A stretch of 44,044 nucleotides of DNA from Desulfobacteraceae bacterium (GCA_003599015.1 QZIK01000058.1:1-44044); one strand, 5' to 3'. Positions 58 through 13,177 are shown, counted from the stretch's first letter. Made by a program: numbers and translations. Notes: generated by a model not told the origin, from the letters alone.

Positions 58-2334
58 ATGGGACGTTTATTTAAACTTATTATATGTCTCTTTCTGATCT
101 CCAGTGCAACAGCATGCTCTTCAAATGAGGAGAAAAAATTAGCCCATTTTGAGAAGGGGAAGACTTATTTCGAAAAACAGGAATTCCAGAGCGCGAGGCT
201 AGAATACAAGAATGCCATAAAGCTTGATCCTAAATTTTCTGATGCCTACTGGCAGCTGGCTGAAACCAGCATGAAACTTAACGACCCCAAAGAAGCATTC
301 GGGGCTTACAGCATGGTGGTAATGCTTAACCCTGACAACCTTGAGGCACAAATCAAAGTGGCCACATTCCTTCTCCTTGGGCGCAAGATAGAGCAGGCAA
401 GGGAAAAGGTGGAACTCGTACTTGGGAAGGATCCGAATAACTCAAAGGCACTACTTCTCAAGGCAGCCATCCTGAGCCAGGAAAGCAACCTTGATGAAGC
501 GCAGGCTATATTTGAGCAACTCCTTACGGCAAATCCAAACGAGGCCAACGCAGCCCTTGGCCTTTCAAGGGTACACATGGCAAGGGGAGCTTTCGACGAT
601 GCGCAGAAGGTGCTGAAGTCCGCCATTGAAAAGGACCCAAAGGATCTTCAACTGCAGATGGCTCTATTTGGTATGTATTATCAAAAAAAAGATTTTGAGT
701 CTGCTGAAAAAGTTCTCCTCGGGCTTCTCTCATACAATCCGGAAAATGTGGATCTGTTTCTGGTCCTGGGAAACTTCTACGCAGGGCGCAAACAGAATGA
801 GCAGGCCGAGGACGCATTCAAAAAGGCAATTGCAGCAAGCAAAAAAGGTATAAGACCACACATGGCAGCTGCGGCCTTTTACTCATCCATGGGCAGGAAA
901 AGCGAGGCTGAAGCAACATACAAAGAGGCATTGGCCATTGAACCTGAAAACATTGGAATTATGGAAGTAATGGCTCGTTTTTACCTGGAGAATCAAAAAA
1001 CCGAGCAGGCTGAAGCACATATCAAAAAAATACTTCAAAAGGAACCCAAATCCGTTTCAGCCAGAATGCTGCTTGGAGAAATAGCGGTTTCCAGGCGCGA
1101 CTTTGACGGAGCCCTAGAGATATTCAACGGAATTCTAAAAGATGATCCCGCTTCGTCCCCTGCAAACTATTTCATGGGTGTTATTCAATTCACCAAGGGT
1201 GATCTTTCCGGCGCAAAAGGTTCCGTCGAAATTGCACTGAAGTCCAACCCGGGCTTTTTAAAGGCCAGAATCCTTTTGGCGGATATTTACCTGGGAACAG
1301 GAAACTACGAGTCGGCACAAAAAGAGATTCAGTCAGTACTTATGAATCTTCCGCAGGATTATCAGGCCAATATGATCGCAGGGCTTGCTTACCTTCATCA
1401 GGGGAATCTCGAAAAGGCAAGGGTAGCCTTTGAAGCCACAACCAGGATAAACCCCAACAGTCCATCCGGCTATTATCGTCTTGGGATAATACAGCGACAT
1501 CAAAAAGACTATGAAAACGCAATGTCCAATTTCGAGAAAGCCATTGCCATAAACCCTAATCTTTTGGATGTGTTCTCGGAGATAATAGCAACCCATGTGG
1601 CAAAAAATGAGCATGACAAGGCACTATCGAGATGTGACGACAAGCTTAAGGAATTGGGAAAAAATAACCCGGCCCTAGCCATCCTTTATAATCTCAAAGG
1701 GGAGGTCTATGTGGCCAAGAACGATCTTGCCAATGCTGAAAAGATTTTTCAAACCGCCCTTGAAAAAAATCCTGAGTATCTTCTACCCTACTATTCACTG
1801 GCTGGCATATATTTAAGGGAGAGCAAGATAGACAAGGCTATTGACCAGTATCAGGCCGCCCTTGGGAAAAAGCCTGATGATCATGTTATACATATGTTGC
1901 TGGGTACTGTATATGAGATGAAAAAAAAGTACGCTGAATCTGAAAAGCATTACCGGGAGGCCATCAGGATAAGGCCTGATTTTGCTCCGGCAGCCAATAA
2001 CCTTGCTTACCTTCTGGCATCTCAGGACAAGGAACTAGATTTTGCCTTGACACTGGCCAAGATAGCAAAAGAAAAACTCCCTGAAGACCCTGCTGTTATG
2101 GATACCCTCGGGTGGGTCTACCTTAAAAAAGGCATATACGACAGGGCGATTATGGAGCTTTCAGCAAGCGTAGCCAAACTTCCCAAAAATGCTGTGGTGC
2201 GATATCATTTGGGGTTGGCCTATAATGGAAACGGAGATTCTACACTGGCAAAGGAAGAACTTGAAAAGGCACTTCAACTTGAACCTGGATTTGAAGGGGC
2301 CTCCGACGCAAAACGAATCCTTTCTGAGTTGTAA
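58..2334 (+). CDS. TPR-repeat lipoprotein (PEP-CTERM-system TPR/PrsT-like)
   Basis: ORF with N-terminal hydrophobic segment and lipobox-like ATAC-S; tandem TPR units across about 750 aa; SD 'ggagg' upstream. Confidence 0.85.
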   Translation: MGRLFKLIICLFLISSATACSSNEEKKLAHFEKGKTYFEKQEFQSARLEYKNAIKLDPKFSDAYWQLAETSMKLNDPKEAFGAYSMVVMLNPDNLEAQIKVATFLLLGRKIEQAREKVELVLGKDPNNSKALLLKAAILSQESNLDEAQAIFEQLLTANPNEANAALGLSRVHMARGAFDDAQKVLKSAIEKDPKDLQLQMALFGMYYQKKDFESAEKVLLGLLSYNPENVDLFLVLGNFYAGRKQNEQAEDAFKKAIAASKKGIRPHMAAAAFYSSMGRKSEAEATYKEALAIEPENIGIMEVMARFYLENQKTEQAEAHIKKILQKEPKSVSARMLLGEIAVSRRDFDGALEIFNGILKDDPASSPANYFMGVIQFTKGDLSGAKGSVEIALKSNPGFLKARILLADIYLGTGNYESAQKEIQSVLMNLPQDYQANMIAGLAYLHQGNLEKARVAFEATTRINPNSPSGYYRLGIIQRHQKDYENAMSNFEKAIAINPNLLDVFSEIIATHVAKNEHDKALSRCDDKLKELGKNNPALAILYNLKGEVYVAKNDLANAEKIFQTALEKNPEYLLPYYSLAGIYLRESKIDKAIDQYQAALGKKPDDHVIHMLLGTVYEMKKKYAESEKHYREAIRIRPDFAPAANNLAYLLASQDKELDFALTLAKIAKEKLPEDPAVMDTLGWVYLKKGIYDRAIMELSASVAKLPKNAVVRYHLGLAYNGNGDSTLAKEELEKALQLEPGFEGASDAKRILSEL

Positions 2335-2369
2335 GGAAGCGAAAGGAAAATAAAAGATGTTGGAAGATC

Positions 2370-3512
2370 ATGGCTCAGCTTAAGGATTATCAGAAAATTA
2401 TATTGTCAGAAATTAGTAAGATGGCAAAAGACAAGATTTTGCCCATGGCCGGAACTATGGACAAGGAAGGCAAATTCAACCTGGATTCTGCTAAGCTTTT
2501 AGGTGAAATGGGCCTTTTGCAGATCTTTCTTCCGCCTGAATACGGAGGTCTTGAGGAGGACCAATGCTTGATGTTCTGCCTTTGCATTGAAGAGGTGGCA
2601 AAGGCTTGCGCTTCCTCTGCCTTAACCATAATCATACAGGCAGTGGGCTCGTTCCCCATAATAGAGGCAGGCTCTTCAGAGCAGAAAGACACATATTTCC
2701 CCCGTCTTGCTTCCGGTAAAGAGCTGGTGGCATACCTTGTAACAGAACCCCATGCCGGTTCAGATGTAGCCGCAATAAAAACAAAGTCTGTCAGAAAGGG
2801 AGACAACTACCTCCTGAGCGGAAGGAAATGCTTTGCCACGAATGGAGGAGTGGCGAGTATTTCAACGGTCCTTTGCCTTACAGGAGAAAAAGAGCTGAGC
2901 TTTTTTGTACTTGATATGAACGCCAACGGAGTGTTTCTTGGCAAAGAAGAGGATAAACTCGGATTTCGAGCAAGCAATACCCAGGAGGTGATCCTGGAGG
3001 ATGTTCTCATTTCAGAGAAAAACCTTTTGGGGAAAAAGGGAGAAGGGTTCGTGATAGCAATGAAGGATTTTGATATGTCAAGACCCGGAGTAGCGGCCCT
3101 TTCCCTTGGTATTGCAGAGTCATCCGTGGAAGCAGCCATTGAATATGCATGTCAGAGGCATACTTTTGGAAAGCCCCTCATCAGGCACCAGGCCATTGAA
3201 TTCATGATAGCCGACGCCCTTACCCATATTGAAGCAGGACGAGGCTTGATGATTGAGGCTGCAAGAACCTGGGACAAGAAACTTAAGAACACCAAGCTGG
3301 CCTCGATGGCTAAATACTTCTGCAGCGATGCTGCAATGCGTATCACCACGGATGCTGTTCAGATCCTTGGAGGTTATGGATATTGCAAGGACTTTCATGT
3401 TGAAAGAATGTTCCGGGACGCCAAGCTAACACAGATTTTTGAGGGGGCCAACCAGATCCAGCGCATGGTCGTGGGAAGGGAGGCGCTCAAAGAAAGAGGA
3501 TTTTTGCTTTAA
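2370..3512 (+). CDS. acyl-CoA dehydrogenase
   Basis: ACAD family motifs: 'YLVTEPHAGSDVAAIKT', 'RHTFGKPL', 'QILGGYGYCKDFHVERMFRDAKLTQIFEGANQIQR'. Confidence 0.93.
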   Translation: MAQLKDYQKIILSEISKMAKDKILPMAGTMDKEGKFNLDSAKLLGEMGLLQIFLPPEYGGLEEDQCLMFCLCIEEVAKACASSALTIIIQAVGSFPIIEAGSSEQKDTYFPRLASGKELVAYLVTEPHAGSDVAAIKTKSVRKGDNYLLSGRKCFATNGGVASISTVLCLTGEKELSFFVLDMNANGVFLGKEEDKLGFRASNTQEVILEDVLISEKNLLGKKGEGFVIAMKDFDMSRPGVAALSLGIAESSVEAAIEYACQRHTFGKPLIRHQAIEFMIADALTHIEAGRGLMIEAARTWDKKLKNTKLASMAKYFCSDAAMRITTDAVQILGGYGYCKDFHVERMFRDAKLTQIFEGANQIQRMVVGREALKERGFLL

Positions 3513-3602
3513 AAAAACTGCACATAAACACATATGATTTGGCTGTCAACAAGCTTTCATAAAACTGTAAAATAAGAAAAAAAGACTTTTTGATATTATA
3601 AA

Positions 3603-4628
3603 ATGCATGGAATGTTTTTAAAACTTGCATTTACTTTTTGGATCGCTACCGTTTATATCTGCTGCAGCCCTTTAAGCTGGGATATTGCTGAAGCCGAGGA
3701 AATTCTCCTTGGCCCCGCTCCCATCATCAATCAGTCACCCACTCTCATCCCTTTTCTTCAGGCGTCTCCAGACAAGGCGGAGATTATACCCTGGGGACGA
3801 TATGCAATGAGACTCTCCATTGCCATTACTAACACACTTCTTAGTGAAAATTCGCAGGATTATTCAGGCGTTATTGATATGGAAACCTTTAGAACATCCC
3901 TTGACCTTAAAGTTGGAGTGCTCTCAGGTCTCGAGATTGGCTTTTCCATGCCTTTGTCTTACAGCTATTCGGGTATAATGGATGAAGCTATTCTTGACGT
4001 GGAAAAATCCTTTGGAAATCCTAGAATTGTAAGGGAAGATCAAACGCCTGGCAGATATGAATACCATCTTGAGAAAAACGGCAAGACCTTCCTTGGAGGC
4101 AAAAAGACAAGCTCTGGACTCGGGGATCTTGTCATCACTGCAAAGGGGAAACTTTTTGATGAAGGACGACTGGTCCCATGCGTCAGCACAAGGTTCAGCT
4201 TTAAAATTCCTTCAGGGAACACGGAAAGAGCTCTAAGCAGCGGCAAAGCCGATGCTGGACTCGGACTGCTCTTACAGAAGCGGATAAACAAACTTACTGC
4301 TTATTTAAATGGAGATATTATATTTCCCGGCGAGCCCTTTAATGAGTTTAATATTTCGGTCCACAACTTTTATATATTTATGCTCGGCATAGAATATAGT
4401 ATAAATTCGAGGCTTTCCCTCATATGCCAGGGAAGGTACACCTCGCGACCCTTCAGGAACGCAGCCCTTGCCATGCTTGACAGGAGAATACATGACCTGA
4501 CATTGGGATTCAACTATGTAAGAGATAGTGGCCTGTTTATTCAAGGCGGAGGAGTTGAAGACTTCCGTGACTCAACCGAAGCAGGCGCAGATATAACATT
4601 CTTCCTTAATATTGGAAAATTTTTCTAG
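3603..4628 (+). CDS. DUF3187-like predicted outer-membrane/exported protein
   Basis: Hydrophobic N-terminus, alternating beta-rich sequence, 'GLGDLVITAKGKLF...FSFKIPSGN' pattern typical of DUF3187 proteins. Confidence 0.6.
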   Translation: MHGMFLKLAFTFWIATVYICCSPLSWDIAEAEEILLGPAPIINQSPTLIPFLQASPDKAEIIPWGRYAMRLSIAITNTLLSENSQDYSGVIDMETFRTSLDLKVGVLSGLEIGFSMPLSYSYSGIMDEAILDVEKSFGNPRIVREDQTPGRYEYHLEKNGKTFLGGKKTSSGLGDLVITAKGKLFDEGRLVPCVSTRFSFKIPSGNTERALSSGKADAGLGLLLQKRINKLTAYLNGDIIFPGEPFNEFNISVHNFYIFMLGIEYSINSRLSLICQGRYTSRPFRNAALAMLDRRIHDLTLGFNYVRDSGLFIQGGGVEDFRDSTEAGADITFFLNIGKFF

Positions 4629-4697: not shown

Positions 4698-6554
4698 CTA
4701 TGGCAGTCCCAAAAACTTTTTTCTATCAGGCGTGGGTATACCCGTTTTCCTGTCCCAGCCCTCCTCATCGTAGTAGTCTTCTATCATCAATTCTGCATCG
4801 CTATGACTTATGGGCTTATCTGTTAAATAATCCTTGAAACCGGGGGTATCGAACCAACCTCCTGGCGGTGAATCATCATTTCTGGTAAAGCCCTCACGAA
4901 CATTTGCCATTCTGAGAAGTGTCCAGGCACGGTCAGCCCTCCTCCTGAGAGATTCCAGGTCCGTGTCTATGCCCGTTACTGCTTCATAGAGCCTTGAGCA
5001 GAGCAAGGCATCATAAAACCGGTTCACCTGCGCCCTGGCGCAAATACCAAGAGATCCCAGCATGGAAAACCAGGCATGGGAATAGCGGAGAAGTCTTCCC
5101 ATTCTAATCCCTTGGTTTCCCCCTACTTGTGCTTTGAAAGAAGGAAGTATCCTCTTTATTGCCTCCTCAGGCACTCCCATCCGCACAAGATGCCGAGGGA
5201 ATACGCTCAGTGGCCGCCTGGCAAAATACGTAGGGGACCCGCTTGCACCGACATGAGGTCCCCTTGGATCCAGGGTCTGCCCGAGTTCCATGGTGCCGAA
5301 AAGATCCCAGGGCACTGCAGCACCCGGACCGGCGTACGGGTGCATGCCCTTTACCAAAGGAGGCGCACAATCCCTTGCCGCATTACCGAATTCCTCAAAA
5401 ATTCCCTTGAAACCTCCTGCAAGTATTCCACCGATTCCCTCTCGTTTAACAATCTTCTCTGCCCATGTCTCCATGGATGTCAGGGAATCAAGAACAATAT
5501 CCGGCGAGCACTCGCCTTTTCCTAGCAAGCCCTTATGTGCCAATGTCCTGGCCATTCCCATGATCCCGAAAAACTCAAACATGTCCAACCCGCAGCGGTC
5601 AAGGGTAGAAGCACATCTAACAGCCTCCCTGTAATCCTTGAACCCATACCTGAGGGGTGTTAAAAGATTCATTATGGAACTTGTGTGAGCAGTAAGCCCT
5701 GCAAACTCCCCATCGGGGATCTCAGCAATCTCTTTGCACCCTACCGGACACGAAACGCAGGATATCCGCCGTTTCTTTATTCTGTAATAGGTTTCCACCG
5801 GTATCATTGGGAATGATTTTAAAATACCAAGATCCTGCCATTCCTTCAGATATGGGTAGTCTCTTATGCCTGCAAGAAGTCCCCCTATTATGTGCCGGTA
5901 TTGTTTCCTGTGAGTCACCTCTAATCCGCCATTACCCCTTACCAAGATGGCCTTGAGGTTCTTAGATCCCATTACTGCTCCAAACCCGCCCCTTCCGAGA
6001 GTGGCAAGCCGGTTAATGAAGGCCATGGAGAATGGGATCATTGCCTCCCCTGCCCTTCCAATAGAGAGCACGCCCGAGGGCCAGGGAATCATTTGCCAAA
6101 GGGATTCACAGGTTTCAACTACGTCTTTTCCCCAAATATGGGCGGCATCTCTTATCTCTATTCGATCATCCTCTATAACAATGTAAACAGGCGCGTCGGA
6201 TCTGCCCTCAATTATGATATGGTCATATCCTGACGCCTTGAGCTGTGCTCCAAATGTAACACCGCCGGCACCGCACCAACCTATTGTACCGCTTGCCGGC
6301 AGTTTGGTTACAGCGTAAATCCTTGATGCAGAAGGTACGTTTGTCCCCACAAACGGGCCTGCCCCCAGGACGATTGGGTTATCAGGTGAAAGAGCCCCCG
6401 TTCCGGGCTTTATAATATCGTATGCCAGTTTGATGCAAAGGCCCAGACCTCCCGCAAATTTCTCAGCCATCGCAACATCAAGAGACCTTGCGGCAACTTC
6501 TTTTTTTGCCAGGTCAACGTAAAGTATTTTTCCGGCAAATCCTCCCGGTTTCAT
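4698..6554 (-). CDS. aldehyde:ferredoxin oxidoreductase (tungsten AOR family)
   Basis: N-terminal 'GFAGKILYVDLAKKEV', 'GRGGFGAVMGSKNLKAI', CxxCxxxC 'CVSCPVGC', C-terminal Cys 'LGICARAQ'; ATGA overlap with the upstream ferredoxin. Confidence 0.93.
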   Translation of the reverse strand: MKPGGFAGKILYVDLAKKEVAARSLDVAMAEKFAGGLGLCIKLAYDIIKPGTGALSPDNPIVLGAGPFVGTNVPSASRIYAVTKLPASGTIGWCGAGGVTFGAQLKASGYDHIIIEGRSDAPVYIVIEDDRIEIRDAAHIWGKDVVETCESLWQMIPWPSGVLSIGRAGEAMIPFSMAFINRLATLGRGGFGAVMGSKNLKAILVRGNGGLEVTHRKQYRHIIGGLLAGIRDYPYLKEWQDLGILKSFPMIPVETYYRIKKRRISCVSCPVGCKEIAEIPDGEFAGLTAHTSSIMNLLTPLRYGFKDYREAVRCASTLDRCGLDMFEFFGIMGMARTLAHKGLLGKGECSPDIVLDSLTSMETWAEKIVKREGIGGILAGGFKGIFEEFGNAARDCAPPLVKGMHPYAGPGAAVPWDLFGTMELGQTLDPRGPHVGASGSPTYFARRPLSVFPRHLVRMGVPEEAIKRILPSFKAQVGGNQGIRMGRLLRYSHAWFSMLGSLGICARAQVNRFYDALLCSRLYEAVTGIDTDLESLRRRADRAWTLLRMANVREGFTRNDDSPPGGWFDTPGFKDYLTDKPISHSDAELMIEDYYDEEGWDRKTGIPTPDRKKFLGLP

Positions 6555-6793
6555 CCTTTGGTCTCCTTGGCTTTCTTTTCAATGGCGTCATAGAAACAAT
6601 GATCAGCGCAGATGCCGCATTCCCGGCATTCATCGTTGAATTCTATCTGGAAACCGTCGCCCTTTGTCGTTATCTGAATTTTTGCCTTTACCGGAGCAAA
6701 GAGCTTGGTATAAACCTCGCTGCATGCAAGCTCACACCTTAGACAGCCGGTGCATCTCTTTTCATTTTTTTGGATGATATATTCGTCCATTGC
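6551..6793 (-). CDS. 4Fe-4S ferredoxin, AOR-associated
   Basis: 'CTGCLRCELAC' and 'CRECGICADHC' motifs. Start placed at MDEYIIQ (6793) because the longer ORF (to 6952) runs into the upstream gene. Confidence 0.85.
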   Translation of the reverse strand, partial: AMDEYIIQKNEKRCTGCLRCELACSEVYTKLFAPVKAKIQITTKGDGFQIEFNDECRECGICADHCFYDAIEKKAKETKG

Positions 6794-6833
6794 CATCGCC
6801 AGATTAGAGGTCGCATCCCGGCTCTGTTGTGAC

Positions 6834-8399
6834 CTACTTATTAACGTTTTCTTCCAACATTCTGTCAGAATACATTCCGTGGCCGTAAAGCCGTCCCCAT
6901 GTGCCATCAGATCTTTGATCCTTGGCCACATACATCGTATGGAGAAACACATCTCCTCCCACCCTGGCTGCTATCTGAGCCGTAACCGCCCTGGTGACCC
7001 TGTACCGTACTGCTGTCTTGGTTGTATCCGTATGCTCGAGGACCCTTTCTTCCTTCCAGTCGTCACTGATAACAGTTGTCCTGAGCAACGTTGCGTCAGG
7101 CTTGTCTTTTTTTAGAAATTCAACGGCGGCGTCCTTGATTGCGGAAAGCTCAGGCCCGGAAAATCGGTCAGGTTTCATGAATGTCCTTTTGACCCTGAGT
7201 TCCCTCAGTTCCCTGTCTTTATTTTCAAGCTCACCGAACTGCCTTTTCATCTCAGCAATCCTGGGATCATTTGGTGATCCTGATTCAGCCGACACGATAA
7301 GTCCTTTGATATCTTCAAAAATATCTTTACTTAGAAAGTTTGGCGGTCTTTTTCCGTCATCCTTGGCAGCCTCCTGTTGGAGCCATCCTGCGGAGTTGTC
7401 GAGCTTTTCTTTTGCCTTCTGAAAAAAACCTTCACTCATGGATGAATAGCTGGATTTAAAGCTCTTAAGGGCGTAGTCCAGCTCCTTTTCAGCCATCTCA
7501 AGCTTCTCTGTTTTTCCTTCAGAAAACTTGACCTTTTTGTATTCAGAAAAAAGCGACTCTGCTTCATCAAAGACCTTCTTTCTTCTGGCCAGCTCCACCA
7601 AATCTTCAGTAGCCCCGGCAACCATGTACTTAGACGGATCATGGCCGGGTTGGCCCACTCCCGCTATATATGGTTTCATTTTGGAAAGCCACTCGTTGGA
7701 AAGGGCCTCCACCTTTGCCTTTCCTTCCTTTGTATCTTCAATTGCCTTGGCGACCCCTGCATTGAATGCCTCTACCTTCGCCTTGAAGGCTGCTATCTTC
7801 TCATTACGAGAGGATATCTCTAAATTATTTTCCGGGATCTGGGTGCCATAGCCCTTTAATATTTCATCCATGGTACCTTGTGCATCCCTGATCACAGTCT
7901 CAAGCTCCTTGGATTTCCACTCATTGGAAGCAACTGAATCCTTCTTAAGTATCCCTTCACCTTTCTCAATTATCTTATCTATATTCTTGAGCCTGTGTGT
8001 AACACCCCCCGGGAGCTTTTCAGAAGAAGGGCCTTTGGCAGCCCTGTCAGCGGCCTGTTTCTGGGCAGGGGCAGGCGAAGCGCCGACTCGCTTGGCAAGA
8101 TCATTGGTAATTTTTTGAATCTTTGATTCGAGGCTTTTCAATCCGGAAAAATCCGGATAGTCCTTCCTTATCTTTTCAACCAAACCCGATGCAGCATCGA
8201 GCTGGGTCTTTGCCTCGTCCAGCTTTCCGGAAAACATGGCCTTTTCACAGTTCCTTATTGCCGTCCCTGCATCATTGACCAGAGACCTGACATCCGCTGC
8301 AAATACTATTGCATGGGATACTGCTATCACTAGAAAAAAAACTGCAACTGTGATTGGACATCCTTTCAGGATCCCATTAATGCCAAAACATTTTTTCAT
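6834..8399 (-). CDS. exported, helix-rich protein of unknown function
   Basis: Start at MKKCFG (8399) preceded by SD 'cggaggttatt'; signal peptide 'GCPITVAVFFLVIAVSHAIVFAA'; long K/E-rich helical region. Confidence 0.75.
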   Translation of the reverse strand: MKKCFGINGILKGCPITVAVFFLVIAVSHAIVFAADVRSLVNDAGTAIRNCEKAMFSGKLDEAKTQLDAASGLVEKIRKDYPDFSGLKSLESKIQKITNDLAKRVGASPAPAQKQAADRAAKGPSSEKLPGGVTHRLKNIDKIIEKGEGILKKDSVASNEWKSKELETVIRDAQGTMDEILKGYGTQIPENNLEISSRNEKIAAFKAKVEAFNAGVAKAIEDTKEGKAKVEALSNEWLSKMKPYIAGVGQPGHDPSKYMVAGATEDLVELARRKKVFDEAESLFSEYKKVKFSEGKTEKLEMAEKELDYALKSFKSSYSSMSEGFFQKAKEKLDNSAGWLQQEAAKDDGKRPPNFLSKDIFEDIKGLIVSAESGSPNDPRIAEMKRQFGELENKDRELRELRVKRTFMKPDRFSGPELSAIKDAAVEFLKKDKPDATLLRTTVISDDWKEERVLEHTDTTKTAVRYRVTRAVTAQIAARVGGDVFLHTMYVAKDQRSDGTWGRLYGHGMYSDRMLEENVNK

Positions 8400-8415
8400 A
8401 ATAACCTCCGAATGT

Positions 8416-9531
8416 TCAAAGTACACCTTTACTGTTTTCAGGCCGTTCAACCAATTTCTTCACAAAACTATATACCGGAGGACGCCTCATTCCCATCTGT
8501 TTGCGGATACGCAGTATGTCAGGCCTCTCCGGCGGGAAAGGGTAGTTGCGGATATAAGGGCCGGGCCTTGAATTTGCGTAAGGCCTGTTGCACGCCACCT
8601 CTCCGTCATAGCCCTCACAGCCGCTGGTACGGAACGGTTCCCCGGAGTCAACAATCTTGTCCAGATTTCCTGAAGCCTCCCCAAAATCAACAATTTTTCC
8701 ATCCTGATCAAATGCGAACGTTCCCATATAAGACAAGTCATTATCAATCAAATATCTTGCGAGCTGGATACGCCTGTACTGATCTATGGGAGGTGGTTGC
8801 ATATCGCACATGGGTGAATCAGGTTCGGGGAAAAAGGAAAACAAATGGGTCCACCCTCCCATATCTCTAACTCTTTGGATTGCTTCACACATCTCTTTTT
8901 CCGTCTCACCCATTCCCACCATAAAGTGGGAACCGGCCTTTCTTTTTCCGAAGACATAAAGCGATTCCTCCAGGCACTCCCAGTATCTTTCCCAGTTGTG
9001 GGGCCCCCCTATGTATTTACCGCGATACCTGTCGAAAAGTCCCCGTGTTGCAAGGTCGATGGCAACCCCTATCCTGTCAGCCCCGGCATCCCTGTAATTC
9101 TCAAGGTCCTTTAAATCGACAATTGTGGGTGAAATGAGCACTGACACAGGGATATCAAAACTTGACCGCAGCCTCGAGATCACATAAAAGGTGTCCTCCC
9201 TGGCACTCCTGTTTGTAATCATTGAGATGCAGATCCTTTTGACCTTGTCCTTGCGCTCGCCGATCCTCCCGATTATTTCATCCAGGGCAACCACCGGCCA
9301 GCTGACCCTTATGAAGCTTTTCTGCCCATACTGACCGGGACGTCTGCTTGAAAGACCGCAATAAGCACATCTGGCGGCACAGCCGTTTTTGTAGGTAAGA
9401 AGCAGGTTTATGCAGTAAAGTTTTGCGTTTCTGTAAAACAGCCCGGGTTTGATCCCCAGGGTCATTGCCGCCGCAAGACTCATCCTGAGGACATCCGGGC
9501 TTTCCTGTAAAATGATTTCATCATTTGTCAT
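8416..9531 (-). CDS. radical SAM protein, LipS1/LipS2-type lipoyl synthase subunit (which of the two not assigned)
   Basis: CxxxCxxC motif 'CAARCAYC'; BioB/LipA-like barrel; C-terminal Cys pairs 'SGCEGYDGEVACNRPY'; clustered with a lipoate ligase and a second radical SAM gene. Confidence 0.75.
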   Translation of the reverse strand: MTNDEIILQESPDVLRMSLAAAMTLGIKPGLFYRNAKLYCINLLLTYKNGCAARCAYCGLSSRRPGQYGQKSFIRVSWPVVALDEIIGRIGERKDKVKRICISMITNRSAREDTFYVISRLRSSFDIPVSVLISPTIVDLKDLENYRDAGADRIGVAIDLATRGLFDRYRGKYIGGPHNWERYWECLEESLYVFGKRKAGSHFMVGMGETEKEMCEAIQRVRDMGGWTHLFSFFPEPDSPMCDMQPPPIDQYRRIQLARYLIDNDLSYMGTFAFDQDGKIVDFGEASGNLDKIVDSGEPFRTSGCEGYDGEVACNRPYANSRPGPYIRNYPFPPERPDILRIRKQMGMRRPPVYSFVKKLVERPENSKGVL

Positions 9532-9565
9532 CTAAAAACCTTACCCCCCAATTAAGCCTACACAT

Positions 9566-10540
9566 CTACCACTTAGTCGACGCAATATCCAATGAAACAG
9601 AGCAACAGGTCCTCTGAAAAAGTGTTTTCAAGCCAAGTTTCTCAGCATGATAGATGGCTTCATCCGAAGGAATCGCCATACGGTTAACGCCGGCCATTAT
9701 CGCAAGAAGCTCAATCTCTGCCTCACCTCTCTTTCTTGCGCATCCAAGTCCTATCCTCACACCAGGCATCATCAGGCGAGCATCTGCGATCAAATCAGCC
9801 ACCTCCCATGGCGAAGGCGACTGAAAAAACTTCTCTCCAAAGGCAGGAGGTGGCATTAATGCAACGATCACAAGCTGGGCAACTTTGAAAGACGAAATCA
9901 TTTCAATTGCCTTTTTTTCTGACCTCATCATGCCGTAATACATGCCGCATACCACATGAGGAACAATATCAATCCCTTCTTGCTCAAGTGCTTCCATGGT
10001 GTTAAGTATCGCAGATACCCCGAAGTCCACATGGCAGATGGTATTGTAGGTTTGATCATCCCCCACTACATCAAGAAGAGCCTGATCAACTCCAGCCTGC
10101 TTGAGAATAGCTGCTTCCTTACGATCAACAAGACCGCAATGAACTGTTATGTAAAGACCTGTTTCCTGCTTAATTTTTCCAATGGTGTCAACAAACCGGT
10201 CCCAGGGAAGATGCCCCTTTTTATCACAGCCGCCGCTTATCAGCACCCCATGAAATCCCTTCTTCTTGAATTCCCTGCATATACTGAGAAGCTTGTCAGG
10301 GTTAGCCGCATCAGACATAGTATTAAGAAGCGTGCCTTTGCAGTGGTCACACCTGAGGGCGCAGGCTCCTCCAGTTATGGAGACTGCAGGATATCTTCCA
10401 ACTATCCCGTTATAATGAAACATTCCAGGAAGGTAAAAAGTGATGGTTTCCCCAAAAATCTGCCGGGAAATGCCCCATGCTGCCTCCATTTTCTCCTGCA
10501 ATGCCTTATGGTTTGTGTTTATTTCTAAGGTGTTATTCAT
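9566..10540 (-). CDS. radical SAM protein, LipS1/LipS2-type lipoyl synthase subunit (which of the two not assigned)
   Basis: CxxxCxxC 'CALRCDHC', 'ISGGCDKKGHLPWDRF'; start placed at MNNTLEI (10540), giving an 8-nt overlap with the end of the upstream flavoprotein gene. Confidence 0.75.
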   Translation of the reverse strand: MNNTLEINTNHKALQEKMEAAWGISRQIFGETITFYLPGMFHYNGIVGRYPAVSITGGACALRCDHCKGTLLNTMSDAANPDKLLSICREFKKKGFHGVLISGGCDKKGHLPWDRFVDTIGKIKQETGLYITVHCGLVDRKEAAILKQAGVDQALLDVVGDDQTYNTICHVDFGVSAILNTMEALEQEGIDIVPHVVCGMYYGMMRSEKKAIEMISSFKVAQLVIVALMPPPAFGEKFFQSPSPWEVADLIADARLMMPGVRIGLGCARKRGEAEIELLAIMAGVNRMAIPSDEAIYHAEKLGLKTLFQRTCCSVSLDIASTKW

Positions 10541-11600
10541 GGAGTCTTCCGTAATATTCCTTGAAACCAACCCAGCAGAAGGGAAGAATCCTATCAAGAC
10601 AATCCCATCGTTCCTCCATAATCTTTCTACGCTGAACCCCCCTTTCAAGGCTTTCCAAAAACAGGTCTTTCCACTCCTCCTCGTATCCGTAAAGAATCTC
10701 TATATTATCCTCAGCCGCAGCCCTGGCAGCCCACTCCCCTGCCATCTTTCCGCATATGACCGCCTGGGGCACGCCTGCCCCTGTGATCGGATGTGTCTGT
10801 CCGGCAGCATCCCCCACAAGCAACATGTTCCCGGATACAGTCCTTTGAAGTGGCCGTACAGGTATCCAACCTGCCATGCAACCCTTTGTCTTCATATCTA
10901 TTTTTTTTAATCCTTCAAGAAACGATAGGAAATCCCTAAGAGCCTTGTATAACGATCGTCCGTCTCCGCCCTTTATCATACCAAGACCTGCATTGGCATC
11001 GCCTCCCTTGGGAAAAAGCCAGCCGTACCCCCCCACAATTTCCTTAAGAAAATATACCTCTGTAAAATCCATGGAAGCAACGAGAGGAACCCTGGCCTGG
11101 ACAGCCGGGATAAGATCCTTATTCACTGAATTCATCCAGCGGCCGACTGTGGAGCGGGGCCCGTCCGCCCCTATTATTACTTTAGCTTTGATCCTTAAGG
11201 TTTTCCCGCCCAGAGAGATGATCACACATTCATTATCCACCCCAAGGACCCTTGCGTCTGTTATGATCTGGACACCATTCTCCCGGCACTGTCTTGCAAG
11301 TCCCTGGTCAAAAAGGTCTCTCCTTATCATGTATCCTGGAGCCTTATTCTCAATTACTCGACCGTCAGGCAGTATGGTTTTCATTGCCCTTACAGTCTGA
11401 ATAACGGCGGTCGGTTCCACACATGTCTCACTCTTTAGCAGGACCGGTATGTGCTCTGCGCATCGCACAGGGACACCCACTACCGCCTTTCTTTCGCATA
11501 TCACCACGTCCAGACCCCTGGCCTTTACAGAAAGCCCTGCGGAGCAGCCTGCAGGTCCTGCGCCAACAACAAGAACGTCGCAGGTTCTTAAAGACTCCAT
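10533..11600 (-). CDS. geranylgeranyl-reductase-family FAD-dependent oxidoreductase (LipT-like by context)
   Basis: 'DVLVVGAGPAGCSAGLSVKARGLDVVICERK' FAD motif; 'GADGPRSTVGRW'; 'LLVGDAAGQTHPITGAGVPQAVICGKMAGEWA'; 13-nt overlap with the ligase gene. Confidence 0.8.
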   Translation of the reverse strand: MESLRTCDVLVVGAGPAGCSAGLSVKARGLDVVICERKAVVGVPVRCAEHIPVLLKSETCVEPTAVIQTVRAMKTILPDGRVIENKAPGYMIRRDLFDQGLARQCRENGVQIITDARVLGVDNECVIISLGGKTLRIKAKVIIGADGPRSTVGRWMNSVNKDLIPAVQARVPLVASMDFTEVYFLKEIVGGYGWLFPKGGDANAGLGMIKGGDGRSLYKALRDFLSFLEGLKKIDMKTKGCMAGWIPVRPLQRTVSGNMLLVGDAAGQTHPITGAGVPQAVICGKMAGEWAARAAAEDNIEILYGYEEEWKDLFLESLERGVQRRKIMEERWDCLDRILPFCWVGFKEYYGRLHE

Positions 11601-13177
11601 TGAATCTTCTCCGCTACTGAAAGAACGGCCTTGAGAAGCGAAAGGTTCACGCTGGTCTGGGAATCGAATCGTCCCTCATAGGCCTCCCTGGCCTTATCCA
11701 ACTCGTAACAGGTTGTGTTGTCAATATCGAGCAGGATGCCAGGAAGGCCAATCTTTTCAAAATCATCCACATGCTTTGCAAAAAAAGGCTGGCAGCAGCA
11801 GCCTACAAAGGCCTTCACCCCTGAATTTTTAAGCCGCATCAGTTCAGACATGAGGTCCTCGAAGCTTACGATACAGATGGATTTCATCATGGCCCTGATA
11901 CCTATTTCTCTGGCAGCTCCCACCGTGCAGTCGCCACAACCCCTGCATATCTTTGAATATCTTAAATCGCAAGTGGTAAGCTTGGAGCAGTAGGGGAGCA
12001 AAAGTGCTGAAGGTCTTAGGCCAAGGACCTCTTCAAATGATCCGTTTGTCACGGAAATAAGATTGCATAGCTCAAGGGGTATGCCATAGTCTGAAATGTC
12101 AACCTTTCTAAGTGCTTGATCAAGGGGTTTTATAAAATCATCGGGTCCCATGCCCGGTATGGCTATCAGTCCTTGTTCAAAAAAGCGCCTCACGCTTTCA
12201 TGGAGGCTTTTCCTTTCCAGCTTGGCTCCCCTCAGGGCCGCTTCCATATCAAAGAGTGCCCTTGAGGGAAAAGACAGAAAATCCCCTGTTATGTAAACAT
12301 CTTTTATCCTTCTTTGAGGAAGGTTCACAATCAGGGTGAAACGCACCAGACCCGACTCTGACTTATAGGCCCCCTGGACAACCTCCCGCCTCAACAGCTT
12401 TGGACTTACAAGGTCTATCCACTCCTGGGAACGGTAGTATTCTAGTTTCTGTTTAAAAAGCTCCTCCTCTTCACCTGTCAGACCCCCTGGTTCAAGCCTT
12501 ATGGCCAGCGCTGCCTCAAAACCTCGTTTTATAGCCTCCTTGATCTCGGGCATGGCTGGGGTATATCCCAATTCCCATGCAAGGCATGTTACCCTCTCCT
12601 TAACAGAGTCAATCTCCTTGGCCTTGAGCTTTTCAACAGGAATCCGCAAGGATTTAAGCATGGTATCCACGTCAAAATCGGTAAGCATTGTCCCCTGGAA
12701 AAGAAAAGCCGCATCAGAGTCAGTTCCGCCCGTGCCTGAAATCTTTCTTCCATTTATTTCAATATCGTTTCTCGGCCTGAATTGCGCTTCAAGTCCAAGG
12801 TATCGCAGCGCCAGTATCACCGGGTCGCAAAGGGTCCTGAAAAGCCTTTCATTGGGGATCTTAACCCTGAAAAACTCCTTATCACAAATCACTTCCCACC
12901 CAAGCTGGCTTTCATCAAAAAGTATGGCCCCACCTCCTGTTATACGCCGGTTGATGTGGATATTTTGATCATGGCAGTAGTCTGTGCGGATTTCCTCAGA
13001 CACGGCCTGATGAAATCCCACCAGTACGCACCGGGGCGAGAACTGAAGGAACCTTATGGTATTGGGTGTCATACCCAAACCCCGCAACTCAACAAGCGTC
13101 TCATCCATGGCCATGTTTTCCGCGGCGGTCATGGGCGGGGTATCAAGCAGTCTCCAAACTTTTCTTGCTTTTGGCAT
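11588..13177 (-). CDS. lipoate-protein ligase A-like protein fused to a C-terminal Cys-rich DUF116-like domain
   Basis: 'RRITGGGAILFDE', 'RPRNDIEINGRKISGTGG' (LplA core), 'DVYITGDFLSFPSRALFDMEAALRG' (LplA C-terminal accessory domain), then 'LLPYCSKLTTCDLRYSKICRGCGDCTVGAARE...GCCCQPFF' (DUF116-like). Start at MPKARK preferred over the ORF start at 13258. Confidence 0.85.
   Translation of the reverse strand: MPKARKVWRLLDTPPMTAAENMAMDETLVELRGLGMTPNTIRFLQFSPRCVLVGFHQAVSEEIRTDYCHDQNIHINRRITGGGAILFDESQLGWEVICDKEFFRVKIPNERLFRTLCDPVILALRYLGLEAQFRPRNDIEINGRKISGTGGTDSDAAFLFQGTMLTDFDVDTMLKSLRIPVEKLKAKEIDSVKERVTCLAWELGYTPAMPEIKEAIKRGFEAALAIRLEPGGLTGEEEELFKQKLEYYRSQEWIDLVSPKLLRREVVQGAYKSESGLVRFTLIVNLPQRRIKDVYITGDFLSFPSRALFDMEAALRGAKLERKSLHESVRRFFEQGLIAIPGMGPDDFIKPLDQALRKVDISDYGIPLELCNLISVTNGSFEEVLGLRPSALLLPYCSKLTTCDLRYSKICRGCGDCTVGAAREIGIRAMMKSICIVSFEDLMSELMRLKNSGVKAFVGCCCQPFFAKHVDDFEKIGLPGILLDIDNTTCYELDKAREAYEGRFDSQTSVNLSLLKAVLSVAEKIQWSL

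Follow-up and report, generated by a model that had tools for sequence, protein, structure and literature searches.

The insertion of sulfur at C8 and then at C6 by two radical S-adenosylmethionine (SAM) proteins, LipS2 and LipS1, has been shown previously (PMC9585515), and the LipS1/LipS2 pathway of lipoate assembly has been described in bacteria, where its co-occurrence with the canonical LipB/LipA route is common (PMC10332631). In the sulfur oxidisers Thioalkalivibrio and Hyphomicrobium, the genes for an sLpl(AB) ligase composed of LplA and LplB parts, for the two radical SAM proteins and for LipT, a flavin adenine dinucleotide (FAD) oxidoreductase suggested to be the electron donor of the pathway, are clustered (PMC10332631). 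The present analysis concerns a block of four genes (8416-13177) of like composition in a stretch of 44,044 nucleotides from a Desulfobacteraceae bacterium (GCA_003599015.1 QZIK01000058.1:1-44044; the whole stretch is referred to as the window), in which the ligase carries an additional C-terminal domain, DUF116 (Table 1). The block is very likely a LipS1/LipS2-type lipoate-assembly operon; an earlier note, made from the sequence alone, had proposed this pathway in another bacterial setting, and both the hidden Markov model (HMM) matches and the cluster ligands agree with the proposal, with the qualifications that the scores fall below the family cut-offs and that canonical LipA and LipB are also encoded. 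The latter point and a different gene order set the locus apart from the sulfur-oxidiser systems, as does its host, an uncultured, sulfate-reducer-type member of the Desulfobacterota and not a demonstrated sulfur oxidiser, whose family includes strain NaphS2; among named organisms its closest relative is Desulfobacteraceae bacterium CG2_30_51_40, of the same genus.

The four genes lie on the minus strand, with overlaps of 13 nucleotides (11588-11600) and 8 nucleotides (10533-10540) and a gap of 34 nucleotides (9532-9565), a layout given in the earlier note and confirmed by the open frames. Since the identical gene order is found again in dozens of genomes, the arrangement is far beyond chance. 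The protein types named in that note (an LplA-like ligase, a geranylgeranyl-reductase-type FAD protein and two radical SAM proteins) are matched by Pfam and NCBIfam; both radical SAM proteins carry CxxxCxxC and, unlike canonical LipA, with which the block would share the end product, neither has RSSY or matches TIGR00510, the sole match to that family in the genome being on contig C19.

Which of the radical SAM proteins is LipS1 and which LipS2, left undecided in the earlier note, can be regarded as settled at the level of sequence: the best NCBIfam match of the LipS1-like protein is LipS1 (NF053742; 214.6 bits, E = 1.9e-63), 156 bits above the next family, BioB (58 bits), and that of the LipS2-like protein is LipS2 (NF053743; 222.7 bits, E = 6.5e-66), followed by a variant radical-SAM domain family (55.6 bits), with margins of about 155-165 bits for both proteins. 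Membership in BioB, HydE, PylB or another family, to which these secondary matches could be taken to point, is extremely improbable given the far higher scores of the LipS1 and LipS2 models and the agreement of the ligand patterns with them; a BioB, HydE, PylB or MoaA identity was rejected for the score margin, and the placement of both proteins in unrelated families, the outcome that the earlier note had held would undo its proposal, did not emerge. Because the scores lie under the equivalog cut-offs (230 bits for LipS1, 270 bits for LipS2), as they do in nearly all relatives, they are not final by themselves; indeed, the LipS1 cut-off is passed by 1 of 61 relatives and the LipS2 cut-off by none of the 61, and the matches in the control genomes (T. 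maritima and S. acidocaldarius) likewise fall short of the LipS1 cut-off.

Most of the doubt over the assignment is removed by the auxiliary-cluster ligands mapped by mutagenesis in Thermococcus kodakarensis, namely H159, C230, C276 and C277 of LipS1 (three Cys and one His) and C85, C276 and C279 of LipS2 (three Cys; PMC9585515). By motif order and spacing, the former correspond to H195, C267, C312 and C313 of the LipS1-like protein, invariant in 33 sequences and 96-100% conserved among 85 (C267 98%, C312 and C313 96%), and the latter to C101, C305 and C314 of the LipS2-like protein, 99-100% conserved in 72 sequences. The archaeal proteins share the CxxxCxxC motif, and differ in that the block considered here is a bacterial operon with LipT and that the final pair of LipS2 cysteines forms Cx8C instead of CxxC; since a relative (locus L044) keeps the T. 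kodakarensis-like spacing in TTGCSGCNRPY, where the window has TSGCEGYDGEVACNRPY, the extra residues are a loop insertion. A phmmer search of the PDB with LipS2 gave no match, a search of the PDB with the LipS1 profile gave distant biotin synthases and PylB only, and a search of plasmids for a LipS1 relative found none.

The ligase resembles sLpl(AB) in that an LplA catalytic domain (Pfam LplA-B_cat, 161.6 bits, E = 2.9e-47; NCBIfam lipoyltrans) with an intact active site is fused to an LplB-type part, the latter more weakly matched (NF053749, 43.1 bits, under the cut-off of 65; Pfam Lip_prot_lig_C, 20.8 bits, E = 3.7e-4, also below cut-off); the core residues R74, R75, G78-80, N134, D135 and K142 (alignment numbering) are invariant in 35 fusions. 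The sulfur-oxidiser ligase is about 361 residues long, a length given for Hyphomicrobium denitrificans by its deletion design (PMC10332631), and because of this length the H. denitrificans protein very probably is without DUF116. The plain two-domain architecture (about 360 residues, with nothing past LplB) is thus exceeded here by a domain of 154 residues, on account of which the 529-residue ligase is called a variant and not a plain sLpl(AB).

The DUF116 domain had been named in the earlier note, where its significance was not taken up, and Pfam confirms it (PF01976; 37.3 bits, E = 2.4e-9, gathering cut-off 25). Eight cysteines and one histidine (C22, C28, C36, C39, C42, C86, C87, C115 and H94, domain numbering) are conserved at 98-100% in 44 sequences, among them the CxxCxxC motif C36xxC39xxC42 (98%), and the domain is probably, as its sequence suggests, an iron-sulfur (Fe-S) module. 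An AlphaFold2 model predicts an alpha/beta domain with a mean confidence (pLDDT) of 91.8; its fold search against the PDB gave nothing significant, the best hit (E = 0.049) being a designed Rossmann 2x2 protein, and a PDB search with the DUF116 profile gave no match, while in the model of the full fusion the placement of the domains is uncertain (predicted template modelling score 0.59). For the archaeal DUF116 (arCOG02078), likewise Cys-rich with CxxCxxC, a comparative study predicted metal binding, a flavodoxin-like fold and a role in electron transfer; that protein stands alone with two N-terminal transmembrane segments (PMC5898192), whereas in the window the domain forms the C-terminal part of a lipoate ligase. 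A literature search that excluded subscription papers found no paper tying DUF116 to lipoate, PMC5898192 being the sole paper with the term; the link between DUF116 and a lipoate ligase is the novel part of the locus, and DUF116 recurs across many bacteria.

The flavoprotein matches TIGR02032 (201.4 bits, cut-off 158.8) and a Pfam FAD oxidoreductase family, and is called LipT-like on the basis of its family and of its position beside lipS1 and lipS2. In a set of 297 Desulfobacterota genomes, LipS1 was found in 44 and LipT in 37, and all 36 strong DUF116 matches were fused, in frames of at least 520 residues; LipS1 occurs in 35 of the 36 fusion genomes and in 9 of the 261 others, and a LipT-like gene accompanies the fusion in 34 of the 36. 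Of the 36 LipS1 genomes that also have LipT, 34 carry the fusion, against 1 of the 8 that lack LipT (Fisher 7e-6, related genomes being treated as independent): the fusion tracks LipT, and not LipS1 alone. On the ligase tree the fusion state needs 3 changes, which is consistent with one gain and a few losses of the fusion, so that few evolutionary events underlie the association.

Among 60 relatives, two types of LipS2 can be distinguished: type A stands last, after the fusion, LipT and LipS1, which is the arrangement of the window, and type B occurs in the order GcvH, Lpl(AB) of about 355 residues, LipS2, with LipS1 elsewhere in the genome. The type A order is common to many Desulfobacterota, and scattered examples occur in archaea and in other phyla; in the 73 named loci found through LipS1 (many of them contigs of metagenome-assembled genomes (MAGs), with taxon names as binned), it appears in several Desulfobacterota families, including Desulfovibrio An276, Dethiosulfatarculus and Desulfocarbo, and, beyond them, in Bryobacterales, CSSED10-310, Subteraquimicrobium and Thermoplasmatota MAGs, the same components being arranged in a different order in Hydrothermota and Mcinerneyibacteriota. 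After deduplication, loci with a ligase and LipT have the fusion in 42 cases and lack it in one (L144), and about 28 ligases of loci without LipT are unfused, in line with LipS1/LipS2 systems without LipT in general, in which the ligase is mostly unfused; loci added later include LipT without the fusion (genome G061) and the fusion without a neighbouring LipT (G069). The G061 cluster (L178) holds both lipoate routes, LipB and LipA being encoded in one open frame (2016-3848) upstream of GcvH, the unfused ligase, LipT, LipS1 and LipS2.

Type B is exemplified by L079 (6430-9082), with a GcvH-like gene, Lpl(AB) and LipS2, and about 23 loci are alike, LipS1 usually being elsewhere. Three genomes 95-97% complete (G009, G020, G034) have a type B LipS2 and LipA, and gave no LipS1 match at E <= 1e-20, for which assembly gaps are a possible explanation; a lone LipS2 acting without LipS1 is conceivable in these genomes. 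The idea, drawn from type B loci, that a solitary LipS2 makes a mono-thiolated cofactor is unproven, and most type B genomes carry LipS1 elsewhere.

The window is contig 7 of an assembly of 3.0 Mb in 149 contigs, estimated to be 66% complete, to which family searches were applied for all statements on the genome. The search proposed in the earlier note, for lipA, lipB and lipoyl-domain proteins, recovered LipA with RSSY and LipB, both apparently intact, a lipoyl-domain E2-E3 protein encoded about 10 kb from LipA on the same contig, and a GcvH-like protein flanked by two HdrD-like CCG/4Fe-4S proteins (L012, 3-2927); the remaining five Biotin_lipoyl matches have, by eye, biotin-type motifs. Since canonical LipA and LipB are also encoded, the block is, on its predicted functions, a second, parallel lipoate route next to LipB/LipA; that note had held that a canonical lipA/lipB set as the only active route would refute its proposal, and of this the presence of the canonical set alone has been established. 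That the operon instead supplies all lipoyl proteins, LipA/LipB being a minor route, would fit several genomes of the order that keep LipS1 and LipS2 without a LipA match (e.g., G032, on one contig, G042 and G045), and is nevertheless rather improbable here, in view of the intact appearance of LipA and LipB and of the closeness of LipA to the E2-E3 gene. The GcvH-like protein is possibly a lipoyl redox carrier, as its neighbours suggest, and a GcvH and HdrD-like pair adjoins about a dozen type A blocks in other loci. Contig C53 encodes two more LplA-like proteins (L004 and L005; 364 and 379 residues), in the vicinity of genes for acyl-CoA dehydrogenases and for a NifU-like protein.

In the mechanism that we propose, the Lpl(AB) part would activate octanoate (or lipoate) with ATP and attach it to the lysine of a lipoyl carrier; LipS2 would then place sulfur on C8 and LipS1 subsequently on C6, each drawing on its own auxiliary 4Fe-4S cluster, with reducing power provided by the LipT-like flavoprotein. 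The acceptor would be the GcvH-like protein of the HdrD-like redox module, LipB and LipA serving the E2 of a 2-oxoacid dehydrogenase. The lipoate-making activity of the block, the role of DUF116 and this division of labour are inferred from sequence, and together with the sub-threshold HMM scores this leaves some room for LipS-like enzymes of another sulfur-insertion or cofactor pathway, whose substrate would not be an octanoylated lipoyl protein; such a reading is highly improbable, considering the intact ligase active site, the auxiliary-cluster ligands conserved in both radical SAM proteins and the recurrent GcvH neighbours.

Because the fusion tracks LipT, and not LipS1 alone, DUF116 is placed between LipT and the radical SAM proteins, where it may relay electrons while holding the ligase beside them; electron transfer is put forward tentatively as its role. 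With the same reserve, DUF116 might be a dedicated Fe-S redox module of lipoate assembly: LipT would be coupled through it to the insertion of sulfur by LipS1/LipS2, the octanoyl-protein being bound by the very polypeptide that contains DUF116, and the main products in sulfate reducers would be lipoylated GcvH-like carriers that belong to HdrD-like electron-transfer complexes. It could instead donate Fe-S clusters or sulfur, rebuilding the auxiliary clusters of LipS1 and LipS2, as its eight conserved cysteines and one histidine might allow and as might be called for by enzymes that consume their own clusters and, when a physiological system reduces them, complete no more than 1-1.5 turnovers (PMC9585515); this supply role is judged slightly less likely, since type B systems run the same LipS2/LipS1 enzymes without a fused DUF116, the fusion profile gave no DUF116 match in G015, G039 and G047, all of type B, and the fusion follows LipT. 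Several observations weigh against the proposed reading of the block as a whole: the radical SAM scores fall short of the equivalog cut-offs, the GcvH-like gene of this genome sits on a separate contig and not beside the block, the sulfur-oxidiser sLpl(AB) functions with LipT without DUF116 (PMC10332631), and LipT is kept without DUF116 in at least two lineages (L144 and G061), so that the domain is not strictly needed with LipT and its placement as an electron relay is weakened.

Table 1. Features of the four-gene block in the window (aa, amino acids).
Feature	Position	Strand	Basis and remarks
Lpl(AB)-DUF116 fusion, lipoate/octanoate--protein ligase with C-terminal Cys-rich domain	11588-13177	-	529 aa from the ATG of the earlier note; Pfam, NCBIfam
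LplA catalytic domain, residues 18-220	12518-13126	-	Pfam LplA-B_cat; contig C7 in whole-genome search
LplB-like accessory domain, residues 269-356	12110-12373	-	NCBIfam NF053749
DUF116 domain, residues 376-529	11591-12052	-	Pfam PF01976; 8 conserved Cys and 1 His; predicted alpha/beta fold
LipT-like FAD oxidoreductase, geranylgeranyl-reductase superfamily	10533-11600	-	355 aa; TIGR02032
LipS1-like radical SAM protein	9566-10540	-	324 aa; NF053742
CxxxCxxC of LipS1-like protein (C60, C64, C67)	10340-10363	-	sequence; invariant
LipS2-like radical SAM protein	8416-9531	-	371 aa; NF053743
CxxxCxxC of LipS2-like protein (C51, C55, C58)	9358-9381	-	sequence; 98-100% conserved

Elsewhere in the window, right after the LipS2 gene, lies an open frame of 538 residues (6834-8450) that gave no match in a Pfam search and whose product is, by eye, probably secreted; an aldehyde:ferredoxin-oxidoreductase-like protein and an adjoining ferredoxin-like protein (4698-6952) were also recognised by eye.

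The locus gives DUF116, a family of unknown function, a specific context: tied physically to the ligase and statistically to LipT, the domain is a concrete candidate for the reduction of LipS1/LipS2 or for the renewal of their auxiliary clusters. By analogy, the presence of two complete lipoate routes in one cell, and of a GcvH-like protein whose neighbours are HdrD-like Fe-S proteins, suggests that sulfate reducers may employ a lipoyl-based redox carrier comparable to the LbpA of sulfur oxidisers.

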